Below are positions 18,658 to 58,443 of a DNA stretch of 58,443 bases, piece after piece. This DNA comes from an uncultured Selenomonadales bacterium. Lineage in GTDB: Bacteria; Bacillota; Negativicutes; Selenomonadales; Selenomonadaceae. The position numbers and the translations under genes are program-made. The DNA lies in assembly GCA_947304355.1 (NCBI GenBank), contig CAMZAX010000013.1:1-58443 (forward strand). Reading direction: 5' to 3'. The notes under the pieces were generated by a model. The model was not told the origin of the DNA. It did no database searches and worked only from the letters and a program-made list of their open reading frames with translations. Position 1 is the stretch's first letter. Each line of letters begins with the position of its first letter.

Positions 18658-18662
18658 TGACC

Positions 18663-18690
18663 TTATCCCTTATCCCTTGTCCCTTGTTCC
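18663..18690. repeat. Heptanucleotide repeat array
   Basis: On the minus strand four units: GGAACAA GGGACAA GGGATAA GGGATAA. It forms the C-terminal codons and stop of the FAD oxidoreductase and leads into the ribosome binding region of the next gene. Confidence 0.85.
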
Positions 18691-20237
18691 TTTGCCTCGT
18701 GATAAGTTTGCTCCGCGTTGATCTTCCAAATGTCGGACTTGGGGAATTGCCCGCCGATGGCGCAGACCGCCGCAATCGCCGTCAACATGCTGTGATCCAT
18801 GTTGTTGTAGCGGTGCTGACCGTTGCGCCCGATGCAGTAAAGATTTTGAATCTCGTCGAGCGCGGCGCGCAGTTCGCCGATATTTTCGTAGGTGTCGAAA
18901 TAAGCGGGATAAGCCTTCGGGACTTTGACGCGCACGCCGAATTTAACGGACGCCGCGTCGATAATCCCGATTGACGCCAATTCTTCCGCCGCGAATTTTA
19001 TAAAGTCGTCGTTGCTCATTTGCCAGAGTTCGTCGCCTTCGTTGCAAAAATATTCGAGACCGAGCCAAACGGAATTTTCCGGGTCGGCAACCATGTACGG
19101 CGACCAGTTGTTAAAAATTTGCAGGCGACCGAGCTTGACGGACGGTTCTTGAATGTAAATCCAGCAATCAGGCACGATGTTGCCGAGCGTCTTGATTTTG
19201 GTTTTGTTGGGCGGCAAAAGCTTGTCGACGAGGAGCCCTACGGTTATGAAGTCGCGATAGGGCAAGCCGCGCGCGATTTGCAGTTGTCGAAAGTTCAAGC
19301 CGTCGTCGAGAGCTTCGGCGAGTTCTGCAAGCGGCATACTTGACAGGAAATAGTTGGCGGGGAAAGTCAACATGCCGGCGGGCGATTGGGCGCGCACAGA
19401 GCGGACGATTTTTTTTGCGTCGACGTGAATGCTTTTGACGGTTGAGCCGGTGAGGACTTCGCCGCCGAGCCGCTTAATTTCGTCGGCGAATTTTTCCCAC
19501 AGCTGCCCCGGACCGAACTTGGGATAGTAAAAGCGTTCAATCAGCGACGTTTCGCCCGCGCCCTCCTTCGAGCCAAAAGTTTTCTTCACGAAGTCGACAA
19601 TTGTTTTGCCGAGCGAAAGCCCTTTGATTCGTTGCGCGCCCCAATCCGCGCCGATTTCTTGAGGCGTGCGTCCCCAGACTTTGGTCGTGTAGTCGCGGAA
19701 AAAAGTTTCGTACAGCCTTTGCCCGAAACGATTAATCATGAAGTCTTCGAGCGTGTGCTCTTCGCGTTGAGTGAATTTCGTCTTGAGGAAACTTGTGCCG
19801 ATTGAAAACATTTCGAGCAAGCCGAGGTTGCGAATCGTATCGAAGTTGAGCGACACTGGATAGGAGAAAAATTTTCGCCGATAAAAAATTCTTGATACGC
19901 GGTTGCGGTTCAGAAAAACTTCGTCGACAGATTCGGGATCCGCGCCGCCGTCAACCAAAACCGATTCACGTCCGAGTATTTTGTCGTCGAAAGCGGGCGC
20001 ACCCTGCGCCGGCAAAAGTGATTGCCACAGCTTGACGATTTCGTCGTCTTTGGAAAAAAATCTGTGACCGCCGATGTCCATGCGGTTGCCGTTGAAATTC
20101 ATTGTGCGCGCGAGTCCGCCAACAAATTTTTCTTTTTCGAGGACGACGGGCTTAATGTCGGTGTGTTTCAGCAAATAATAAGCGGCAGTCAAACCCGCGC
20201 AACCCGCGCCGATAATTATGGCGTGTTTCTTATGCAT
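18663..20237 (-). CDS. FAD-dependent NAD(P)-binding amine-oxidoreductase family protein
   Basis: 524 residues. N-terminal dinucleotide fold [20 protein letters not shown], then [31 protein letters not shown], as in UDP-galactopyranose mutase and protoporphyrinogen-oxidase-like proteins. Also [36 protein letters not shown] and, near the end, [22 protein letters not shown]. Proteins of this type accompany envelope-polysaccharide genes, consistent with the GT-C-like protein downstream. The last nine residues (KEQGTRDKG) and the stop are encoded by a heptamer repeat, so the natural C-terminus was probably shorter or different. Confidence 0.8.
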
Positions 20238-36454: not shown

Positions 36455-36847
36455 TTATTCGAGCGCGGAATTTTTCAGATAGCAAACGTCCTTCCCGTCA
36501 ATCTTTTGGACGGCGATTGTCCCGACGACGGTTATTTCGTTCGCGCCCGCCGGATATTTGCCGTTGCTCAAGACGAATTCCAAGCCTTGAGAGCAACAGC
36601 CCGCCGCGTCGCGAACAAGGCAAGCGTGAATCGTTTGCGACGCCGAGACGGGATAAGTCGTGTATTCGCCGCGCATACGCATCGTCTTGCCGACGAAGGT
36701 CGCGGGACTGTTCACCATGTTGAAGACGGTCGAGTAAACCATCGTCGAGCTCATGCGCGTCAAATCAATGTCGACGGCGGCGGCGCGTGCAAAGCTTGAA
36801 CATGTCACCGCGACGAACAGAATCACTGCGGCAAAAAATTTTTTCAT
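36455..36847 (-). CDS. Small exported protein of the zinc transporter operon
   Basis: 130 residues with a signal peptide (MKKFFAAVILFVAVTCSSFARA). The core MVYSTVFNMVNSPATFVGKT - MRMRGEYTTY - CLVRDAAGCCSQGLEFVL suggests a small OB-like beta fold with a Cys pair. I recall similar proteins next to metal ABC transporters in Firmicutes; no biochemical role is known. It overlaps znuB by 4 nt, so it belongs to the operon. Confidence 0.6.
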   Translation of the reverse strand: MKKFFAAVILFVAVTCSSFARAAAVDIDLTRMSSTMVYSTVFNMVNSPATFVGKTMRMRGEYTTYPVSASQTIHACLVRDAAGCCSQGLEFVLSNGKYPAGANEITVVGTIAVQKIDGKDVCYLKNSALE

Positions 36848-37683
36848 GACAAACCTCCGAATTCATTGAACGCGAAACAAATTCCGAACGTCAGCGCGTC
36901 AACCGCAACAATCGTCGAGCCGACGGGAGTGCCCGCCAATATCGAAGCGATTATCCCGACGAAAGCGCACGCCACCGACAACGCCGCCGAGCAAATCGTC
37001 ACGGCGCGAAACGTCTTGAACAACTTCATTGCCGACAACGCCGGAAAGATTATGAACGCCGAAATCAAAAGCGAGCCGACCAAGTTCATTGCCAAGACGA
37101 TTATCACCGCGATGACGACCGAGATTGTCAAGTTGCACGCGTCGACGTTGAGCCCCGCCGCCCGCGCAAAGTCTTCGTCGAACGTCACCGCAAAAATTTT
37201 GTGGTAAAACAAAACGAACGCCGCAATCATCAAGACCGACAGCCCGACGCTGAGCCAAACCTCCGCGTCCGTGAGCGTCAATATCGACGTGGAGCCGAAC
37301 AGCACGCTGCACACGTCGCCCGACAAATTCGACGACGCCGCGAACAAATTCATGACCAAATAGCCGAACGCCAACGAGCCGACCGAAATCATTGCGATTA
37401 TCGCGTCGCCTTTTATTTTTGTCCGTTGACCGCCGCGCAGGATTAAAACCGCGCAGAGTATCGTAAGCGGCAAAGTCAACAGCATTTTGTTGGCGAAGTT
37501 CAAGACGGTCGCCACTGCCAGCGCGCCGAATGCCACATGCGCCAGCCCGTCGCCGATGAGCGAAAATCTTTTCAGCACGAGCGTCACGCCCAACAGCGAC
37601 GAACACAGCGCGATAAGCACGCCGACAATCAGCGCGTTTATCACGAACGGATATTGCAAGTAAAGTTCCAAAGTCTCAAGCAT
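36844..37683 (-). CDS. znuB: Zinc/manganese ABC transporter permease
   Basis: 279 residues from ATG 37683, overlapping znuC by 8 nt. Eight to nine hydrophobic helices of the ABC-3 family: YPFVINALIVGVLIALCSSLLG, KRFSLIGDGLAHVAFGALA, DAIIAMISVGSLAFGYLVM, DEDFARAAGLNVD (coupling helix), MNLVGSLLISAFIIFPALSA. Pairs with the ATPase and binding protein upstream. Zinc is the likely metal because of the binding protein; manganese cannot be excluded. Confidence 0.88.
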   Translation of the reverse strand: MLETLELYLQYPFVINALIVGVLIALCSSLLGVTLVLKRFSLIGDGLAHVAFGALAVATVLNFANKMLLTLPLTILCAVLILRGGQRTKIKGDAIIAMISVGSLAFGYLVMNLFAASSNLSGDVCSVLFGSTSILTLTDAEVWLSVGLSVLMIAAFVLFYHKIFAVTFDEDFARAAGLNVDACNLTISVVIAVIIVLAMNLVGSLLISAFIIFPALSAMKLFKTFRAVTICSAALSVACAFVGIIASILAGTPVGSTIVAVDALTFGICFAFNEFGGLS

Positions 37684-38338
37684 TGCGGAAGTCCTCCCGC
37701 GTCCCGAAGAAAATTTTTTCGCCGAGGTGCAAAACATGTGACGCGTATTTAATCGCCTCGTGCACGTCGTGAGAGATCATGATTATCGTCAAGCCGTCGC
37801 GATTGAGCGCGGCAATGACTTTGTACATATCGGCGGCGGCTTCGGGGTCGAGCCCGGCAATCGGTTCGTCGAGCAACAAAATTTTTTTCGCGGCGCACAA
37901 TGCCCTTGCCAACAGGACGCGCTGTTGCTGACCGCCCGACAATTCGCGGAAACACTTCGTCGCCAATGACGCAATGCCGAGCCGAGCCGTGTTCCGGGCG
38001 GCGATTCGCTTGTCTTCGGACGTGTAGAACGGCAGGAACTTTTTTCGAGCAAGGCAGCCCGACAAAACAATTTCCTCAACCGACGCGGGGAAGTCTTTTT
38101 GGATTTGCGTTTGTTGCGGAAGATAGCCGATGTCGCCCGCCGTCAATCCGTTCAAGAAAATTTTCCCGCCCAGCGGTTTTTGCAAGCCGAGGAGCGTCTT
38201 TACGAGCGTGGACTTGCCCGCGCCGTTTTCGCCGATTATGCAAAGGTAATCGCCCGCGCCGACCGCGAAACTCAAATCCTTGACGACGACGCGCGTGCCG
38301 TAGCCCAACGAAACGTTTTCGCACGCAATCAGATTCAT
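37676..38338 (-). CDS. znuC: Zinc/manganese ABC transporter ATP-binding protein
   Basis: 220 residues. Complete ABC ATPase: Walker A IIGENGAGKSTLVKTLLG, Q-loop YLPQQTQIQ, signature LSGGQQQRVLLARAL, Walker B ILLLDEPIAGLD and H-loop IMISHDVHEA. The stop overlaps znuB and the start overlaps the znuA stop by 4 nt, giving znuA-znuC-znuB order. Confidence 0.92.
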   Translation of the reverse strand: MNLIACENVSLGYGTRVVVKDLSFAVGAGDYLCIIGENGAGKSTLVKTLLGLQKPLGGKIFLNGLTAGDIGYLPQQTQIQKDFPASVEEIVLSGCLARKKFLPFYTSEDKRIAARNTARLGIASLATKCFRELSGGQQQRVLLARALCAAKKILLLDEPIAGLDPEAAADMYKVIAALNRDGLTIIMISHDVHEAIKYASHVLHLGEKIFFGTREDFRNA

Positions 38339-39300
38339 TGTAACGCCTCGCGCAAGACCGACAAATTTTTTTCCATTATCGAAAGATACGTCGCGCCTTC
38401 GACCTTCGCTTGCATCGAATCGAGCGTCAAGATTCGTTGATTCTTCCGCGCCGTGTTCGCGATAATCGTTTCGGCGATTTTGTGATTCGTGCCCTCAATC
38501 ATCATGACGCACGGCAAATTTAATTCGTCGACCTTGCCCGCCAAAAACGTGACGGTTTGAAAGCTTGCCTCTGTTTCCGCCGAACAGCCCGCGAACGCCG
38601 CGAAGTACTTCAAGCCGTAATCGTCGACCAAGTAGCGGAAAGGAAATCTGTCGCCGAACACCAACGTCTTGCCCTGCGCGGCGGCGAGCGTGTCGCGATA
38701 CTTTTCGTCGAGTGCGGCGAGCTTTGATTTGTAAGCGGCGGCATTTGCCTTCAGCGCGTCGACCTGCGCGGGCGCGGCTTTAATCAGCGCGTCGGTTATT
38801 GCGTCGCACAAAATTTGCGCGTTGGTCAGCGAAAGCCAAACGTGTTCGTCGGGCATGTCTTCATGTTCGTGATGTTCATGTTTTTCGTTCATGCCTTCGA
38901 CGTATTCTTCGTGCTTGAGTCTGTTGCCGAGCGCGTTCATGAAATTGACGACGATAATATTTTTGTTAACGGCTTGCCGGAGCGCGTCGTTTACCCACTC
39001 GTCCGATTCGCCGCCCACGTAAATGAACACGTCGCAATCGGAAATCGTCATGATATTCTGCGCGGACGGTTGAAAGCTGTGCAAGTCAATGCCCTTGTCC
39101 ACAAGCAACGTCAAATCGAATGCGTCATTGCCGCCGATAATTTCGCGCGCCCAATCGTAAGCGGGGAAAATCGTCGCGACGACCTTGACTTTATTATCGC
39201 CGGCGGGCTTATCCGTGCCGCACGCTGTAAGGAACAAGGAACAAGGGACAAGATTATCGCCCAAAAAATTTTTTTCATGTGATACCTCCGTTTCGGGCAT
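38335..39300 (-). CDS. znuA: Zinc-binding lipoprotein ZnuA, signal peptide out of frame
   Basis: Mature part is a normal metal-binding protein: VKVVATIFPAYDWAREIIGG, DLHSFQPSAQNI, a His-rich loop (EHHEHEDMPDEH), VWLSLTNAQ, FGDRFPFRYL and AAFAGCSAETEASF. The lipobox FLTACG is in this frame. The proper start, ATG 39278 with GGAGG six bases upstream, reads MKKIFWAIILSLVPCSL and then runs out of frame. The array GGAACAA GGAACAA GGGACAA at 39231-39251 lies between start and lipobox. In the lipobox frame the only upstream ATG is 39300, which gives a charged N-terminus (MPETEVSHEKNF). As sequenced, export should fail; four or one repeat units would restore it. Confidence 0.8.
   Translation of the reverse strand: MPETEVSHEKNFLGDNLVPCSLFLTACGTDKPAGDNKVKVVATIFPAYDWAREIIGGNDAFDLTLLVDKGIDLHSFQPSAQNIMTISDCDVFIYVGGESDEWVNDALRQAVNKNIIVVNFMNALGNRLKHEEYVEGMNEKHEHHEHEDMPDEHVWLSLTNAQILCDAITDALIKAAPAQVDALKANAAAYKSKLAALDEKYRDTLAAAQGKTLVFGDRFPFRYLVDDYGLKYFAAFAGCSAETEASFQTVTFLAGKVDELNLPCVMMIEGTNHKIAETIIANTARKNQRILTLDSMQAKVEGATYLSIMEKNLSVLREALQ
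39231..39251. repeat. Heptanucleotide repeat inside the znuA signal peptide
   Basis: Three units on the plus strand: GGAACAA, GGAACAA, GGGACAA (TTGTCCC TTGTTCC TTGTTCC in the coding direction). Unit length 7 is 1 mod 3, so each gain or loss shifts the reading frame of znuA. Confidence 0.9.
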
Positions 39301-39301
39301 A

Positions 39302-39347
39302 AAAAAAACCCGCGCAGATTATACCACGCGGAAAAAATTTTTGTCAC
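39302..39347 (-). promoter_or_regulatory. znuA promoter overlapping the hexokinase terminator
   Basis: Minus strand: GTGACA (39347-39342), 18 bases, then TGG-TATAAT (39323-39318). The -10 box lies in the loop of the hairpin CCGCG ... CGCGG followed by GTTTTTTTT (to about 39302), which would terminate the hexokinase gene just upstream. One short stretch thus serves as terminator and promoter. No clear Zur operator recognised. Confidence 0.6.
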
Positions 39348-39354
39348 ACCGTAA

Positions 39355-40659
39355 TTATTTTTGAACGGCCATAGCCGCCGCGATAGCCGCACCGAGCCCG
39401 GAGCCGCCGTTGTCGAGAATCGTATCGACCTGCGCGGCATCTTCGCCGAGGAGTTCGCTGATTGCCTTGGTGATGTTTTCCTTGGCAAGCGGCATCTTTT
39501 CGTAAACGGAGCCGTCAACCGCCACGTGCTGACGCTGAATCTTGCCGTGCCCCGCGCGTTGCCAGACGAGAGCCACGAACGAAGCCGCAACCAGTCTTGC
39601 CGAACGAATCACGATAACCTTTGCAAGTTCGCGGATTTTGGCAACGTCGTCGCGGTCAAGTTCGCGCCCGACTTTCGCCATGATAATATCGGTTGCCTTG
39701 CCGAGATTCGGCGATTCGTCCAGAATAATCATCGACATATCGACGGAGGTCAACGCGTAACGTTTGCCCTTTTCGCCCAAAAGTTCCGCAATCGCCATGC
39801 CGAACAGTTCGCCCATGTAGCGACCGGAAACCATTTTCTCGAAACGCTGTTCGCCGGGCTTTTCGGAACCTTCGTCGTATTCCTTGTCGAAGCGATTGGG
39901 CACGAGCTTGGAGAAATTGCCGCATTCAAGGTTGAGAATCATGCCGCCCGCGCCGACGCTCTTCGGGTCGTGAATCGACGGTTCAAGGTAGCAAGTGTTG
40001 TGACCCGTGGCGTAGATTGAGCCGATAAACGTATCGGGCGTCTTGTAAGCCGCGCTGAGCAACACGGCAACGGTATCGTTGAGGACGGCGACAGGTTCGA
40101 CGTTGCCCGCGCCGCGACGTTTGAGAGCCGCGACAAGCAAATCGTTGGCAACTTCGCCCTCGACGCCCTGCGTTGCGAATTCTTTCGTCCAGATAATCAG
40201 CCGTGCGTTGTAAAGATTGTCCTGCGTCGACGGGAAAGAAAACGTGTGCCCAAGGTAATATTTCTTCGCGTGGTCGCCGTCAATCGCCTCGTCAATCAGT
40301 TCGGCAATGAAGTCGAACATTTGTTCGGCGGTGGCGTCTTTGCAAATGTAATCGTATTCGCCGGGGACGACCAGCGGACGCCCGACGCGTTTGACAATCT
40401 CGAATTTGCCGTCGCCGTCCAGCCGAATGCGGAAGACGCGAATATTGGTGCCGCCGAAGTCAAGCGCAAGGTATTCGCCCGTCTCCTTGCCGCTGGGCAG
40501 ACCGACGTAAGATTTGAGCATACGCATCGACGACAAGCTGACATCGCGCAGACCCAACTGCAAATCTTGACGGAAGCTCGCCGCGATTTGGTGTAGCCGT
40601 TCGCCGCCGATTGTGAATTCCGCGATAATCTCTTTGAACTGTTCCTCGTTGAACGCCAT
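39355..40659 (-). CDS. Hexokinase, eukaryotic-type family
   Basis: 434 residues from ATG 40659 (AAGGAGG upstream). Phosphorylates hexoses with ATP. The sequence follows the two-domain eukaryotic hexokinase family rather than bacterial glucokinase or ROK kinases: GEYLALDFGGTNIRVFRIRL (phosphate 1), GHTFSFPSTQDNLYNA (sugar binding), EPVAVLNDTVAVLLSA (catalytic Asp), GSIYATGHNTCYLE, and YDEGSEKPGEQRFEKMVSGRYMGEL. The ATG at 40713 is in frame and would include the heptamer repeats (MRNENPCPLSLVP), but the inner start has the ribosome binding site. A GH13 glycosidase 5 kb away could supply glucose. Confidence 0.85.
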   Translation of the reverse strand: MAFNEEQFKEIIAEFTIGGERLHQIAASFRQDLQLGLRDVSLSSMRMLKSYVGLPSGKETGEYLALDFGGTNIRVFRIRLDGDGKFEIVKRVGRPLVVPGEYDYICKDATAEQMFDFIAELIDEAIDGDHAKKYYLGHTFSFPSTQDNLYNARLIIWTKEFATQGVEGEVANDLLVAALKRRGAGNVEPVAVLNDTVAVLLSAAYKTPDTFIGSIYATGHNTCYLEPSIHDPKSVGAGGMILNLECGNFSKLVPNRFDKEYDEGSEKPGEQRFEKMVSGRYMGELFGMAIAELLGEKGKRYALTSVDMSMIILDESPNLGKATDIIMAKVGRELDRDDVAKIRELAKVIVIRSARLVAASFVALVWQRAGHGKIQRQHVAVDGSVYEKMPLAKENITKAISELLGEDAAQVDTILDNGGSGLGAAIAAAMAVQK

Positions 40660-40675
40660 TAAAAATTCCTCCTTA

Positions 40676-40723
40676 GGGACAAGGGACAAGGGACAAGGGT
40701 TTTCATTCCTCATTCCTCATTCC
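40676..40723. repeat. Composite heptamer element upstream of hexokinase
   Basis: Plus strand: GGGACAA x3 (40676-40696), a short junction, then TCATTCC x3 (40703-40723). Read on the minus strand it is GGAATGA x3, AAAACCC, TTGTCCC x3, directly before the hexokinase ribosome binding site. The same composite occurs at 47183-47248. Confidence 0.85.
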
Positions 40724-40743
40724 TAATTATTTTTCTCGCGTCG

Positions 40744-45473: not shown

Positions 45474-47186
45474 ATGAACAGACGAACGTTTATCAAGGGG
45501 GCGATTGCATTGACGGCGGCGGCTTGGGCGAATCCGATGATTGTTATCGACGCGGCGGAAAATTTTAAGTGGTGGCAAAAGAAACCCGTCTATCAAATTT
45601 ACCCGAAAAGTTTTCTGGACACCGACGGCAACGGTATCGGCGACCTGCGCGGCGTCATTGACAAATTGGACTACATCAAAAGCCTTGGCGCGGGCGCGAT
45701 TTGGTTGACGCCGATTTATCCTTCGCCCATGGTCGACAACGGCTACGACATTTCAGACTACACGGCGATTAATCCGCTGTTCGGCACGCTTGACGACTTT
45801 GACGAACTTGTTGCCGAGGCGAAGGCGCGCGACATAAAAATCGTCATGGATTTGGTCTTCAATCACAGCTCCGACCAACATCCGTGGTTCCTTGAGTCGA
45901 AATCGAGCCGCGACAACCCGAAAGCCGATTGGTACATTTGGCGCGACGAAAAAACTAATTGGCGTTCAATCTTCGGCGGCAGCGCGTGGCAGTGGTGCGA
46001 AGAGCGCGGGCAATATTACTTGCACACGTTCGCGACGCAACAGCCCGACTTGAATTGGGAAAATTCCGACGTGCGACGCGCCCTCTACGACGCCGCAAAT
46101 TTCTGGCTTGACCGTGGCGTTGGCGGCTTCCGCATTGACGCGATTGTTTACATAAAAAAGCCCGCGCAGTTCGTCGACGGCACGCCCGACGCTGACGGCA
46201 CTTGCTCCGTCCACAACATGACGGCGGCTTTGCCCGGCATTCTGGATTTCCTGCACGAGTTCAAGCGCGAAGTTTGCGACGGGCGCGACATCTTCACGGT
46301 CGGCGAGGCGAACAGCGTCAAGCCCGAAGACCTTCCGCAGTGGGTCGGCTCTCACGGCGTCTTCGATATGCTGTTCGAGTTCAGCCACGTCAATGTTATG
46401 TTCCCGCACGGCGAAGTTTGGCACCGCGCCGAACTGTACAAGCTCAGCGACTTCAAGCAGGCGTTGACCGACAGTCAACGGGCGACGCGCGACAGTTGGT
46501 ATCCGATTTACTTCGAGAATCACGACAAGCCGCGTTCGGTGAACAATTTCTTTCCGCACGGCTCCGACAAGACTTTGGCGGCGAAGGCAATGGCGATTAT
46601 TCTGCTTACCCTGCGCGGCACGCCGTTTATCTATCAAGGCGAGGAACTCGGCTTTGCAAATGTGGCGTTCGATTCGATTGACGACTACGACGACGTTTCG
46701 TCGCGCGGGCAATACGATATGGCGCGGGCGGACGGTTTCAGCGACAAGCAGGCTTTGCGTTTCGTGCACCGATTCAGCCGCGACAACGCGCGCACGCCAA
46801 TGCAATGGAACACGTCGCCGAACGCGGGCTTCACGAGCGGAAAACCGTGGCTGCCCGTTCACGAAGACTTCAAGACCTGCAACGCGGCGGTCGAAGATAA
46901 AAACGCCGACTCGGTGCTGAATTTTTATCGGCGGCTTGTCTCATTCCGCAATGCAAGTGACGTTTTAATCGGCGGCGACTACGCGGAGCTGTGTCACGAC
47001 AGTGAGGAGCTTTACGTTTTCACGCGGACGCTTGGCGACAAAAAAATCTGCACGGCGGTCAACTTCACGACGCACGACGTTAAACTTCCCGACAAAATTT
47101 TTGACGGCGCGAAGAAACTTTTCGGCAACTACCCCGACGAAAAAAATTATCTGCGCGCGACGGAGGCGGTTATCTATGGCAATTAG
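45474..47186 (+). CDS. Tat-exported GH13 alpha-glucosidase
   Basis: 570 residues from ATG 45474 (AAGGAGG). Twin-arginine signal MNRRTFIKGAIALTAAAWA. The GH13 barrel is complete: KPVYQIYPKSFLDTDGNGIG, MDLVFNHSSDQHPWF, GVGGFRIDAI (nucleophile Asp), FTVGEAN (acid/base Glu), YFENHDKPR (third Asp), RTPMQWN. The arrangement matches oligo-1,6-glucosidase, sucrose/trehalulose synthase and trehalose-6-P hydrolase relatives; a periplasmic location makes trehalose-6-P unlikely. Overlaps the HAD gene by 11 nt. Confidence 0.88.
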   Translation: MNRRTFIKGAIALTAAAWANPMIVIDAAENFKWWQKKPVYQIYPKSFLDTDGNGIGDLRGVIDKLDYIKSLGAGAIWLTPIYPSPMVDNGYDISDYTAINPLFGTLDDFDELVAEAKARDIKIVMDLVFNHSSDQHPWFLESKSSRDNPKADWYIWRDEKTNWRSIFGGSAWQWCEERGQYYLHTFATQQPDLNWENSDVRRALYDAANFWLDRGVGGFRIDAIVYIKKPAQFVDGTPDADGTCSVHNMTAALPGILDFLHEFKREVCDGRDIFTVGEANSVKPEDLPQWVGSHGVFDMLFEFSHVNVMFPHGEVWHRAELYKLSDFKQALTDSQRATRDSWYPIYFENHDKPRSVNNFFPHGSDKTLAAKAMAIILLTLRGTPFIYQGEELGFANVAFDSIDDYDDVSSRGQYDMARADGFSDKQALRFVHRFSRDNARTPMQWNTSPNAGFTSGKPWLPVHEDFKTCNAAVEDKNADSVLNFYRRLVSFRNASDVLIGGDYAELCHDSEELYVFTRTLGDKKICTAVNFTTHDVKLPDKIFDGAKKLFGNYPDEKNYLRATEAVIYGN

Positions 47187-48021
47187 GAATGAGGAATTAG
47201 GAATTATGAATGAAAACCCTTGTCCCTTGTCCCATGTCCCTTGTCCCTGCAAAGTAGCTGCGAGCGATTTCGACGGCACACTTTTTCGCGGCGAGAACAT
47301 CACGGCAACGGACGTGGCGGCAATAAAATCGTGGCGGGCGGCGGGCAACAAGTTCGGCATAGTTACGGGGCGTTGCTGCCCGATGCTGATTTCGCGCCTG
47401 AAAGATTTCGACGTTACGCTTGACTTCGCGATTTGCGACAACGGCGCGATAATCTTCGACGGCGCGGGGCAAATCATCTTCGAGACGGAGATACCGCCGA
47501 AAGTTTTGCTTGCGCTGATGAATGACGCTCACGCGGCAAAAAGTTTTCATTTCCTGTTCGAGGCGGCGGACGAAACTTTTTGCGTAAACGTCGGCGAAAA
47601 GTCTTGGGTTTGGCGCGAGAAAATTCATTGGGAAAATTTTTTGACGTTCACGGACGCCGCGCAGGTTCCCGCCTTCCCGAAGAAAATCAATCAGCTTGCT
47701 TTGGGCTTCGAGACGGTCGACGAGGCGCAGGCTGCGGCGGACGCGTTGAATCAAAACTTCGGCGACGTGATTTTCGCGCAACGCAACACCTACAGCCTTG
47801 ACATAGTGACGGCGGGCATTAACAAAGGCGCGGGCGTCGCGAAACTTTTGGAGCTGACGGGTTGGCGCGGCGCGGTTCACGTTATCGGCGACGAATCGAA
47901 CGATTTGCCAATGATACGACGTTTCAACGGGTGCACTGTGTCGACGGCGAAAGATTTCGTCAAGCGCGAGGCGGCGGCGGTCTTCGATTCCGTCGGCGAC
48001 ATGCTGAAAAATTTTTCTTGA
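47176..48021 (+). CDS. HAD-IIB (Cof-type) phosphatase with repeat-derived N-terminus
   Basis: 281 residues from ATG 47176, nine bases after GGAGG inside the end of the GH13 gene. Cof-type HAD: ASDFDGTLFRGENITATDV (nucleophile Asp), GIVTGR, ICDNGAIIFDG, NKGAGVAKLLELTGW and VIGDESNDLPMIR. Only MAI precedes a 22-residue stretch (RNEELGIMNENPCPLSHVP...) that is pure heptamer-repeat translation; the conserved protein resumes at KVAASDFDGT. The insert keeps the frame. Likely dephosphorylates a sugar phosphate or cofactor. Confidence 0.85.
   Translation: MAIRNEELGIMNENPCPLSHVPCPCKVAASDFDGTLFRGENITATDVAAIKSWRAAGNKFGIVTGRCCPMLISRLKDFDVTLDFAICDNGAIIFDGAGQIIFETEIPPKVLLALMNDAHAAKSFHFLFEAADETFCVNVGEKSWVWREKIHWENFLTFTDAAQVPAFPKKINQLALGFETVDEAQAAADALNQNFGDVIFAQRNTYSLDIVTAGINKGAGVAKLLELTGWRGAVHVIGDESNDLPMIRRFNGCTVSTAKDFVKREAAAVFDSVGDMLKNFS
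47183..47248. repeat. Composite heptamer element inside the HAD gene
   Basis: Plus strand: GGAATGA/GGAATTA-type units (47184-47213), AAAACCC, then TTGTCCC TTGTCCC ATGTCCC TTGTCCC to 47247. The junction GAATGAAAACCCTTGTCCC is identical to that upstream of hexokinase (40676-40723, opposite strand). Confidence 0.85.
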
Positions 48022-48567: not shown

Positions 48568-48573
48568 TTTTAA

Positions 48574-48622
48574 GGGACAAGAGCAAAGGGACAAGGGACA
48601 AGAGCAAAGGGACAAGGGACAA
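48574..48622. repeat. Heptamer repeat with 21-base higher-order unit
   Basis: GGGACAAGAGCAAA followed by GGGACAA GGGACAA GAGCAAA and GGGACAA GGGACAA: two to three tandem 21-base blocks built from three heptamers. It sits between the tRNA terminator and the next hairpin. Confidence 0.8.
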
Positions 48623-48623
48623 G

Positions 48624-48659
48624 AAAAGACTGCCACGCGTCTTGCATGACAGTCTTTTT
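48624..48659. terminator. Bidirectional hairpin terminator
   Basis: AAAAGACTG - 17 bases - CAGTCTTTTT. The U tract on the minus strand (CTTTT) and plus strand (TTTTT) let it end both the tRNA side and the minus-strand gene at 48693. Confidence 0.65.
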
Positions 48660-54041: not shown

Positions 54042-54051
54042 AAAAATTCCC

Positions 54052-54086
54052 CCTTTTCCCTTACCCCTTTTCCCTTATCCCTTGTT
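54052..54086. repeat. Degenerate heptamer array upstream of the Gfo/Idh/MocA gene
   Basis: On the minus strand about five units: GGGATAA GGGAAAA GGGGTAA GGGAAAA GGGGGAA, ending five bases before the ATG. The last unit supplies the Shine-Dalgarno-like purine run. Confidence 0.7.
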
Positions 54087-55520: not shown

Positions 55521-58443
55521 ATGGCAACTTTAGGCTCAAATACACCCGACAAACTTTTGACCGGCACGGAAGAGGCAGATTTTATTCAGAACGGCTCCAA
55601 CGGTTCCAACGTCACCATTCAAGGCTTGGGCGGCAATGACACCTTGCAAAATTGGGGCTCGTCCGTCACTATCCTCGGCGTTTCAGGCAACGATTCTGTC
55701 ATCAACAGAGGCTCCGACGTTTCAATCGACGGCGGCGCGGGCAATGACTTCCTTGCCAATCTCGCAAACTCCCTCACGATTCAAGGCGGCGTCGACAAAG
55801 ACACCATCCACAACGACGGTTCCGACGTCTTCATTGATTCGGGCGCAGGCAACGATTCTATTCAAAATGCGGGCTCCCGCGTCAATATCAACATGAACGG
55901 CGGCAACGACTTTATCAAAAACTTTGCCGCTTACGTTACGATAAACGGCGGCGACGACAACGACACAATCGGCAACTGGCAGGGCTCCGATTCCGTTTCT
56001 GTCTTCGGCGGCGCGGGCTCCGATTCACTTTACAACAACGACAGCCACTTCGTCACTTTGCGCGGCGGCGCAGGTTCCGACGTTCTTAAAAACATCAACG
56101 GCAATTACAGCCTCATCGACGGTCAAGGCGATAACGATTCTATTCAAAACGGCGGCTCCAACTCCACTATACTCGGCGGCAAGGGTAACGATTCCATTGT
56201 CAATAAAATCGTTTACTACTCAGACGGCAAGGGCGGCGTCATTACCGTAAGCCCCGATTCCGTTACCATCGACGCCGGCTCCGGCAACGACTTTATTACC
56301 AACGACGCCAATGCCGTTTCAATCTCAGGCGGCGACGGCGACGATTACATTCAAATCCTCGGCGGCTCTTCCGTCACCCTCGGCGGCGGCAAAGGTAATG
56401 ATTCGCTCACGGGCTCGGCTAAGCCTCAAGTCTTCCTTTACAGCGGCGGCAACGACATCATTACCAACTACAGCGGCGAAGACACCGTTCAAATCGCGGC
56501 GGGCTCAATCGCCTCCGTCATCGTCTCCGACGGCAATGTTGTCTTCCAAATCGGCAACGGCTCACTCACTCTCAAACACATGCAGGGGCGCGTTATCACA
56601 GTGACCGACGCCGACGGCAATACCTCTTCCCATCGTTACGGCGAAACCGGCTATTCCCCTCAAGACGTAATCAAAAATCTCGTCAAGGCTTGGGCTCAAT
56701 CTTCTCTAAGCGACACCGCTAAGCTCGACGAATCTATCAAGCTTTCCACTCACTTCATCGGCATTCAAGACGCGATTGACCAAATGATTGCCGATTGTAA
56801 TGCTGCCGCCGACGTCGATACCTTCTTGCGCAAATACTGCGGCATCATACTCGACAACGACGACACCGGCGCGATTATCGGTTGGGACGCGGGCGGCGAT
56901 CTTGTCATCAACGACGATAACATTGTCGGCGAAACTCTCGAAACCGTTCAAAAGCCAAATTACACCGATACGACTTTCTCGGCGGGCAACTTGTCGATTC
57001 ACCTCGGCTCAAGCGGCTCCACGCTAAACGACAACGGCAAAAAGACTTTCGACGGCATTTATTCTTGGTGGGCTCAAGAGGCTGTTACGCTCATCGAAAA
57101 CAGCTACGGCGTCACCTTCAGCGATTCCGATTCCATTAACATCGCAATGGTCAGGAATGCTTCCTTCGCGGGCAACACCCGCTCCGACGGTTACATGCAA
57201 CTCAATCAGGGCAATATCGAATTCGCAGACGCCGACGATTACAACGGCAACGGCATTGACCGCACCTTTGCTCACGAAATGACGCACGTCGCGCAGTATT
57301 TCCTTATGGGCGGCTCCTTACCGCAATTCCTTATGGAAGGGCTCGCAGACCTCACCTGCGGCATTGACGACCGCAGCGGCAAAAATTCTTTACTCACGGC
57401 TCTTGCCGATGACTCCGACAGCTTGGCTGCTTACCTTAACATCCAAAACGACGGCACGGGCTCGGCTCCCTCCTACGTCGCGGGGTACATGTTCTATCGC
57501 TATATTGCGCGGCAGGCGGCTCTTGCTTACGATGATACAAAAGATTATGCTTTCAAGGACGGCTCGGCGATTTTCGGTTCCGACGATTCCGAACTGCTTA
57601 CCGGCAACGCCAACAACGTCACAATCACTGCAGGAGGCGGCGACGATTCCATTACCGCTTACGGCACGAACATGTTGATTCAAGGCGACGGCGGCGACGA
57701 TTCTGTCATAAACAGCGGCGACGGCTCCACAATCAGCGGCGGCTCCGGCGACGACACCATTTATAATCGCGACGCATCCAACGTCGTCTTCCTATACTCG
57801 GCGGGCGACGGCAACGATTCCATTCGCGGTTTCAATGACACTTCCACTTTGCAGATTGTCGGCACTTACGGCGGCTCCCTAAAGAGCGGCAGCAATATTC
57901 TCGTCACTGTTGACGACAACGTCATTACCTTGGTCGGCGCGTTGAACCTGTCGAAAGTCAACATTGTCGACACGAAGACAATCACTGCCGTTAAGTTCAC
58001 GGACGAAGACGCCGCTAATCAAACTCTCGACGCGGAGATAATCACTGCAGACGCGTCCGCACGCTCAAAATCGATTACAATCACGGCAAACAAGCTCGCC
58101 AACTCAATCGCGGGCGGCGACGGCAAGGATGTCATTTGGGCGGGTGCCGGTGACGACACGCTAACGGGCGGCAACGGCAACGACAAACTTTACGGGCAAG
58201 GAGGCAACGACTGTCTGGAAGGCGGTGCCGGTGACGATTTGTTAAGCGGTTACACGGGCAATGACACCTTGGCGGGCGGCGACGGTAATGACACGTTAAC
58301 GGGCGGCACAGGCAATGATCTGTTCATTTACACGGCAGGCAACGATGTCATAACCGATTACGCTTCGGGCGACAAAATTTCACTCGGTGCGGCTCTGACA
58401 AGCACAAGCCTCAACGGCTCGGACGCGGTCTTGACTGTCGGCA
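55521..58443 (+). CDS. Large RTX protein with an internal zinc metallopeptidase, 3' end outside the window
   Basis: At least 974 residues from ATG 55521 (GGAAGGA upstream), open to the window edge. Residues 1-330: beta-roll of degenerate repeats around GGxGNDxIxN. Residues 335-680: globular region with H585-E-M-T-H589 and E606 in FLMEGLADL, the layout of a gluzincin-type zinc protease. Residues 690-800: more Asn/Asp-rich turns. From about 860: canonical RTX nonapeptides ([20 protein letters not shown] ...) that bind calcium. No N-terminal signal peptide; such proteins leave by type I secretion using a C-terminal signal, which is not in view. Transporter genes are not visible. Confidence 0.8.

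Follow-up and report, generated by a model that had tools for sequence, protein, structure and literature searches.

In the znuA gene of an uncultured Selenomonadales bacterium, an array of heptamers stands where a lipoprotein signal peptide would have its hydrophobic core, and the start codon and the lipobox on its two sides lie in different frames. We give a probability of about one half to the reading that a repeat-driven replacement of the signal peptide was followed by a length mutation that broke the frame, the locus not being an established phase switch. The znuA array belongs to a heptanucleotide repeat, mainly CCTTGTC/CCTTGTT, that is dispersed in the manner of STRRs. It lies on the minus strand of the window, the 58,443-nucleotide stretch of DNA analysed here (Table 1), which is part of an assembly of 2.4 Mb in 66 contigs that is 88% complete (genome G000 hereafter).

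Table 1. The znuA locus, further heptamer arrays of the window, and in-frame array lipoproteins elsewhere in the G000 assembly
Feature	Position	Strand	Basis and remarks
Mature ZnuA frame, 295 codons and stop	38335..39222	-	Pfam PF01297, E 4e-68 (scanned as ORF 38335-39300); dN/dS 0.22 against G010
znuC, ABC ATPase, intact ORF	37676..38338	-	Pfam PF00005, E 5e-27
znuB, permease, intact ORF	36844..37737	-	Pfam PF00950, E 1e-46
Heptamer array, three units (TTGTCCC TTGTTCC TTGTTCC)	39231..39251	-	In place of the signal-peptide hydrophobic core
znuA ATG, frame MKKIF...	39276..39278	-	GGAGG at 39289-39285; MKKIF n-region also in the G010 orthologue
Lipobox Cys codon TGC (FLTA-C-G)	39220..39222	-	Out of frame with ATG 39278
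Promoter-like site GTGACA-18-TATAAT, 5' of znuA	39318..39347	-	Consensus match alone; 1 found against 0.2 expected (shuffles)
CCTTGTC array, znuA-type family, hexokinase leader, just 5' of AAGGAGG	40675..40699	-	TRF, mismatch search, reading
Second heptamer type TCATTCC/ATGAGGA, adjoining the previous array	40703..40728		Repeat search, TRF
AATTAGG array, then CCCTTGT array, in frame with downstream HAD-like ORF (by eye)	47181..47248		
znuA-type family array at gene junction	18661..18692		TRF, array reading
znuA-type family array (AAGGGAC)	48572..48624		TRF
znuA-type family array (CCCTTAT/CCCTTTT)	54050..54083		TRF
In-frame array lipoproteins of G000	C3:2773, C5:72588, C10:44885, C25:27506, C37:4490		

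The peptide translated from ATG 39278 begins as MKKIFWAIILSLVPCSLQRAA, its frame opening as MKKIFWAIILSLVPCSL, and ends at a stop at 39111, while TTACAGCG separates the 3' end of the array from the lipobox TGC. TRF reports the array at 39229-39252, with a period of 7, 3.4 copies and a score of 41, so that a tandem unit not divisible by three is found inside both the coding region and the signal peptide; it is not a long or homogeneous tract of the slippage-prone sort, having three imperfect units. The distance from the ATG to the TGC, 56 nt, puts the start out of frame with the lipobox, and the signal peptide fails to reach the lipobox Cys in frame. The earlier note, which had described three heptamers between this start and an out-of-frame lipobox, is confirmed on this point, and its arithmetic, by which one added or two removed units would join the two frames, is borne out. 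A terminator-like hairpin (39332-39309) overlaps the promoter-like site 5' of znuA. Directly upstream of znuA a protein of the Hexokinase_1/Hexokinase_2 family is encoded (39355-40674; Pfam E 2e-51 and 8e-50); this family is mainly eukaryotic.

Pfam finds a ZnuA domain followed by an ABC ATPase and an ABC-3 permease, the arrangement of a ZnuA system, and the mature part, which had been proposed to be intact, is indeed open over all its codons from the Cys onwards. Relative to the nearest relative, G010, dN/dS is 0.22 for znuA, 0.185 for znuC and 0.097 for znuB (134 codons), the first of which supports constraint on znuA over the divergence from G010. The leader of the G010 orthologue, MKKIFVLLAALLTAINFSG-C, is 57 nt long, array-free and in frame; the best named ZnuA match, in a Selenomonadaceae MAG contig (64% identity), also has an ordinary signal peptide. 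The earlier note had pointed to the ZnuA N-termini of close relatives as a check on the locus: the MKKIF n-region is shared with G010, and the array is found neither there nor in the MAG contig. The 14-mer CCTTGTYCCTTGTY occurs in none of the 80 named loci.

Among the 37 of the 66 known genus members that were searched, a close relative of the window ZnuA is present only in G000 and G010. In G010, two contigs end at codon 102/103 of znuA, each carrying AT-rich sequence; these ends (L147, G010:C13:1-60, and L148, the end of G010:C55) cut the gene at the same codon, and their AT-rich sequence is foreign to it. The G010 gene thus looks interrupted, as if by insertion of a mobile element. Of the 66 genus genomes, 62 encode a second ZnuA-type lipoprotein. 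G000 is one of them, and there this protein has an ordinary, in-frame signal peptide; it may render the window znuA dispensable.

The znuA repeat, which the earlier note had described at this locus, is not confined to it: the 16-mer CCTTGTYCCTTGTYCC has 128 matches in the G000 assembly (69 + 59), seven being found in a backwards control, and the same family stands in frame in other coding genes. The exact 21-mer of znuA occurs at six places in the assembly, and with at most 2 mismatches allowed the 16-mer is met 13 times in the window, far more than by chance (mean in shuffles, 0.06). Ten of the 60 genus genomes searched, G000 included, carry the 16-mer; G000 has by far the most matches and G010 the next most, 36. 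Note that the backwards control is confounded because the T form, CCTTGTTCC, reads identically backwards; it is therefore not a clean null, as seen in G010 (36 matches, 30 in the control) and G074 (none, against 22). We read 102 distinct arrays, 61 of them from G000 (taken from 100 listed among the 128 matches and from the six places of the 21-mer). The commonest sizes in G000 are four units (22/61) and five units (21/61), counted with imperfect units included and in arrays picked by a two-unit seed. Both the many arrays of one heptamer over the genome and the preference for about four units are STRR-type traits.

The heptamer unit is stop-free in all six frames when read by hand, and on the coding strand of znuA its T form specifies the largely hydrophobic LVPCSLF in all three frames. 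A simple codon score, for which 35 long ORFs from the window served as training set, places 20 of the 102 arrays within a single coding frame shared by both flanks; 51 are coding on one side only and 22 on neither side, three stand between opposite strands and six at junctions of same-strand genes. These last six had been flagged as spanning a frame shift, and all of them read as two-gene junctions with no frameshift inside one gene. In-frame N-terminal arrays are present in DnaE-like, TyrA-like, FolC-like and HAD-like genes (labels by eye). No second coding array that throws its gene out of frame was met among the arrays read, those coding on one side only having been frame-checked in part. 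For the array 5' of an smpB-like gene (identified by eye), the scan counts three units in G000 and four in G010, so that unit numbers do change over longer times.

TRF also finds several heptamer arrays in the window beside that of znuA. Those at 40675-40728 and 47181-47248 share a 54-nt composite, 91% alike and in opposite orientations, in which AATTAGG/AATGAGG is paired with CCTTGTC. At the fliR/flhB junction, heptamer-like arrays are present in eight of the 30 fetched orthologues (L308, L310, L314, L316, L317, L325, L333, L336); they differ by species (CCTTGTC, CCTAGTC, AATTAGG, GATTCAG and others), all stand at one position ahead of the conserved N-terminus of FlhB and are stop-free by eye in the stretch printed. 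Heptamer arrays may have a hot spot at this junction. We considered flhB as a second frame-off gene, its array-side ATG being out of frame in G000, and rejected it, because the frame is open further upstream; the frame is likewise open upstream throughout the 30 fetched orthologues, in many starting at an ATG that lies within the gene before it, and G000 follows them (MKCT...). At 55590-58318, tandem repeats rich in glycine and aspartate resemble those of the RTX type.

The use of such arrays as lipoprotein signal peptides was searched for in 66 genomes of the genus as an array with a lipobox-like stretch 3-20 nt behind it. This pattern was found at 12 loci in five genomes (G000, six; G072 and G082, two apiece; G079 and G015, one apiece), and the backwards control gave a single match in all. 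A start is visible for 11 of the 12 (that on C10 is ambiguous, with several in-frame ATGs), and ten of these 11 are in frame, all but znuA. In G015 the contig breaks off within the array, and the frame is intact up to that point. By Pfam, the proteins concerned in G000 are cyclophilin-like, SBP_bac_3, rhodanese, NMT1_3 (TAXI-type), flavodoxin and ZnuA. Examples of the in-frame peptides are MKKFFAAVILSLVPCSLFLTAC, MKKFFLAILLFLVPCSLFLIGC and MRKFLLAIILSLVLCPLSLAVTGC; such array peptides presumably direct the export of the lipoproteins that carry them. When the search was extended to 380 genomes of the class, the 66 of the genus included, nine had matches; those outside the genus (G140, G260, G263, G284) lack a further full unit in the stretch shown and seem to be chance matches. 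In two cases (L239/L243, and two L234 loci), different lipoproteins have near-identical array signal peptides with the same diverged unit, TTGTCCT, as if the peptide had been copied between genes within a genome. The start region of the rhodanese lipoprotein (L241) is itself an array, of AATGCGA/AATGCGT, whose successive units supply ATGs in more than one frame; the CCTTGTC-type signal peptide follows it.

Comparison with orthologues indicates what the arrays replaced. The TAXI-type lipoprotein is matched in 36 of the 66 genomes; 30 loci were fetched and 27 signal peptides were readable, the marker motif having missed three of the 30. Ordinary signal peptides, mostly like MKALKLLLLLPIIALCFG, account for 25 of the 27, and arrays for the two in G000 and G072. 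Likewise, 28 of the 30 loci read for the genus-wide ZnuA-type protein are array-free, the arrays being those of G079 and G015. The G079 gene is 86% identical to that of G014 over 780 nt of the mature part; the two also align in the last part of the upstream gene, in the n-region (ATGAAAAAATTTTTA) and in the lipobox (CGGTTGCGG), and differ only in the core. The mature parts of G015 and G064 are 96% identical, with the array core in G015, whose upstream region is off the contig. For the TAXI gene, G000 and G010 are 83% identical, and the n-region and upstream DNA differ too. Judged from these alignments, arrays stand in place of formerly ordinary signal peptides, or of their hydrophobic cores, in some cases recently, and the extent of the replacement is variable, from a clean swap of the core alone in G079 to more in the TAXI gene of G000. 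Separate origins of the arrays are suggested by close orthologues that are array-free.

The same family of signal peptides gives an indication of how znuA lost its frame. In a gap-free alignment with substitutions, the znuA signal peptide matches that of C3:2773 over 27 nt to the left and 8 nt to the right of the array, the array itself being 21 nt long in znuA and 28 nt in C3:2773. The C37 signal peptide has 63 nt, like that of C3:2773, both being 7 nt longer than that of znuA, and these two have the highest alignment scores with znuA among the 11 signal peptides compared. Since their flanks are free of gaps, the frame break of znuA is most simply explained as a length change of one heptamer, in line with the whole-unit change that the earlier note had supposed. 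The proposed loss of one unit leans on resemblance to these nearest two paralogues, and an indel outside the array is a possible alternative. Of the other in-frame array signal peptides, seven differ from znuA by 4, 10 or 13 nt, the start on C10 being ambiguous; as in-frame lengths span 60-69 nt, a difference of 7 nt is not very unlikely by chance.

On this basis, the following course of events may be proposed. An array would have taken the place of the znuA signal-peptide core, as in other lipoproteins of the genus, most likely after the split from G010. One heptamer would then have been lost by a slipped-strand or recombinational event, both the direction and the mechanism being conjectural, after which translation from ATG 39278 would miss the lipobox and ZnuA would not be made as a lipoprotein. 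Regain of one unit could in principle restore the frame, and a low rate of slippage is suggested because the array has three imperfect units, an argument from unit number.

Permanent loss of znuA fits these data as well as switching does. We consider it unlikely that znuA is a true contingency locus like Neisseria opa, where slippage in the leader repeat would switch ZnuA and the other array lipoproteins at a high rate. Such a locus would agree with a unit that is not divisible by three and stands in the leader as CTCTT does in opa (PMC3960869, PMC3899988), with several lipoproteins of the same array design, with a mature frame that has stayed intact behind a frame-off start, and with the differing unit numbers at the smpB-like gene. 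It is harder to reconcile with a znuA array of only three imperfect units, with the diverged units of the other signal-peptide arrays, all ten of which with a visible start are in frame, and with in-frame arrays in seemingly indispensable genes, e.g., the DnaE-like gene (by eye); moreover, the species is represented by a single assembly, and one genome per species was compared. Rather improbable, to our mind, is decay of a redundant accessory system, with a permanent frame break and a znuA that is turning into a pseudogene. The widespread second ZnuA-type lipoprotein, ordinary and in frame in G000, would make for redundancy, and the restriction of the window-type ZnuA to two of the genus members searched, the apparent interruption in G010 and a dN/dS higher for znuA than for znuB over the 134 codons all point the same way; yet the 295 znuA codons have neither a stop nor a further frameshift (though a recent break would look alike), the dN/dS of znuA is close to that of znuC, and the znuC and znuB ORFs are intact.

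An assembly or consensus artefact, with a real number of units that differs or a base that was lost, is improbable: the assembly is fragmented and incomplete, and arrays can trouble assembly, the G015 contig ending within one, but a 21-nt array is shorter than an ordinary short read, and the remaining five array lipoproteins assembled for G000 keep their frame. We give very little credence to the idea that znuA is not broken at all, the lipobox frame being reached from ATG 39300 or through ribosomal or transcriptional slippage on A7/T6. ATG 39300 is in the lipobox frame and an A7T6 run stands just 3' of ATG 39278; however, the leader from ATG 39300, MPETEVSHEKNFLGDNLVPCSLFLTAC, is acidic, has polar residues in its core and lacks a visible Shine-Dalgarno sequence, this ATG would be about 11 nt from the transcript start suggested by the promoter-like site, and it is the n-region from ATG 39278 that matches the orthologue and the paralogues.

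Several known systems share traits with the replacement and frame break seen at znuA. In Neisseria opa (P.II), as in znuA, a non-triplet tandem repeat encodes part of the signal peptide and the number of units sets the frame (PMC3960869, PMC3899988). For opa, a rate of 1e-3 per cell and generation is given (PMC3960869). The opa unit differs in being the pentamer CTCTT, znuA having three imperfect heptamers in a lipoprotein gene; the znuA repeat is, moreover, dispersed over the genome and in frame elsewhere, and is known here from a single assembly per species. In Haemophilus, the repeats of HMW1/HMW2 sit in the promoter and not in the leader. They are likewise seven-base repeats that affect a surface protein gene (PMC8262952). 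GGGNATC heptamer repeats are dispersed in Xanthomonas and Nostoc (Rehm et al., 2015, PMC4692102), and that paper describes for them, and for cyanobacterial STRRs, many arrays per genome, about four units being favoured, and a frequent location near gene ends, as in the present family. G-triplets, another shared trait, are found here on the opposite strand (GGGACAA), the znuA copy having mostly GG and not GGG. The present unit differs from GGGNATC and the STRRs in sequence, in being open in six frames and in coding in N-termini and in the core of lipoprotein signal peptides; the same paper cites an enrichment of simple repeats near N-termini (PMC4692102). The TAACTGA direct repeats of Beggiatoaceae, also dispersed heptamers, often stand beside start codons, and close strains differ by indels in 7-nt steps; differently from the repeats described here, they are mostly intergenic, and signal-peptide use does not figure in the available passages (MacGregor, 2015, PMC4679880). 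The literature search returned no title on heptamer-built lipoprotein signal peptides (subscription journals lying mostly outside its coverage), and no paper on heptamer repeats in Negativicutes.

In the sources cited here, dispersed heptamers elsewhere are described mainly as intergenic and of unsettled use. The comparison of orthologues within this genus catches heptamers that replace, in frame, a defined segment of a protein, the core of the signal peptide, in different genes and different species. The captured signal peptides offer a test of how the repeat spreads, of the limits on where it lands, and of slippage as a source of switching or of broken genes. Tentatively, and with considerable doubt, one may suppose that the heptamer is a spreading, frame-indifferent module that overwrites signal cores, and that the captured lipoproteins are jointly stochastic through a built-in switch, znuA being off at present. 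Such a module could overwrite the cores of many export signals because it is hydrophobic in every frame of one strand. If this were true, a set of nutrient-binding lipoproteins would be stochastically variable together.
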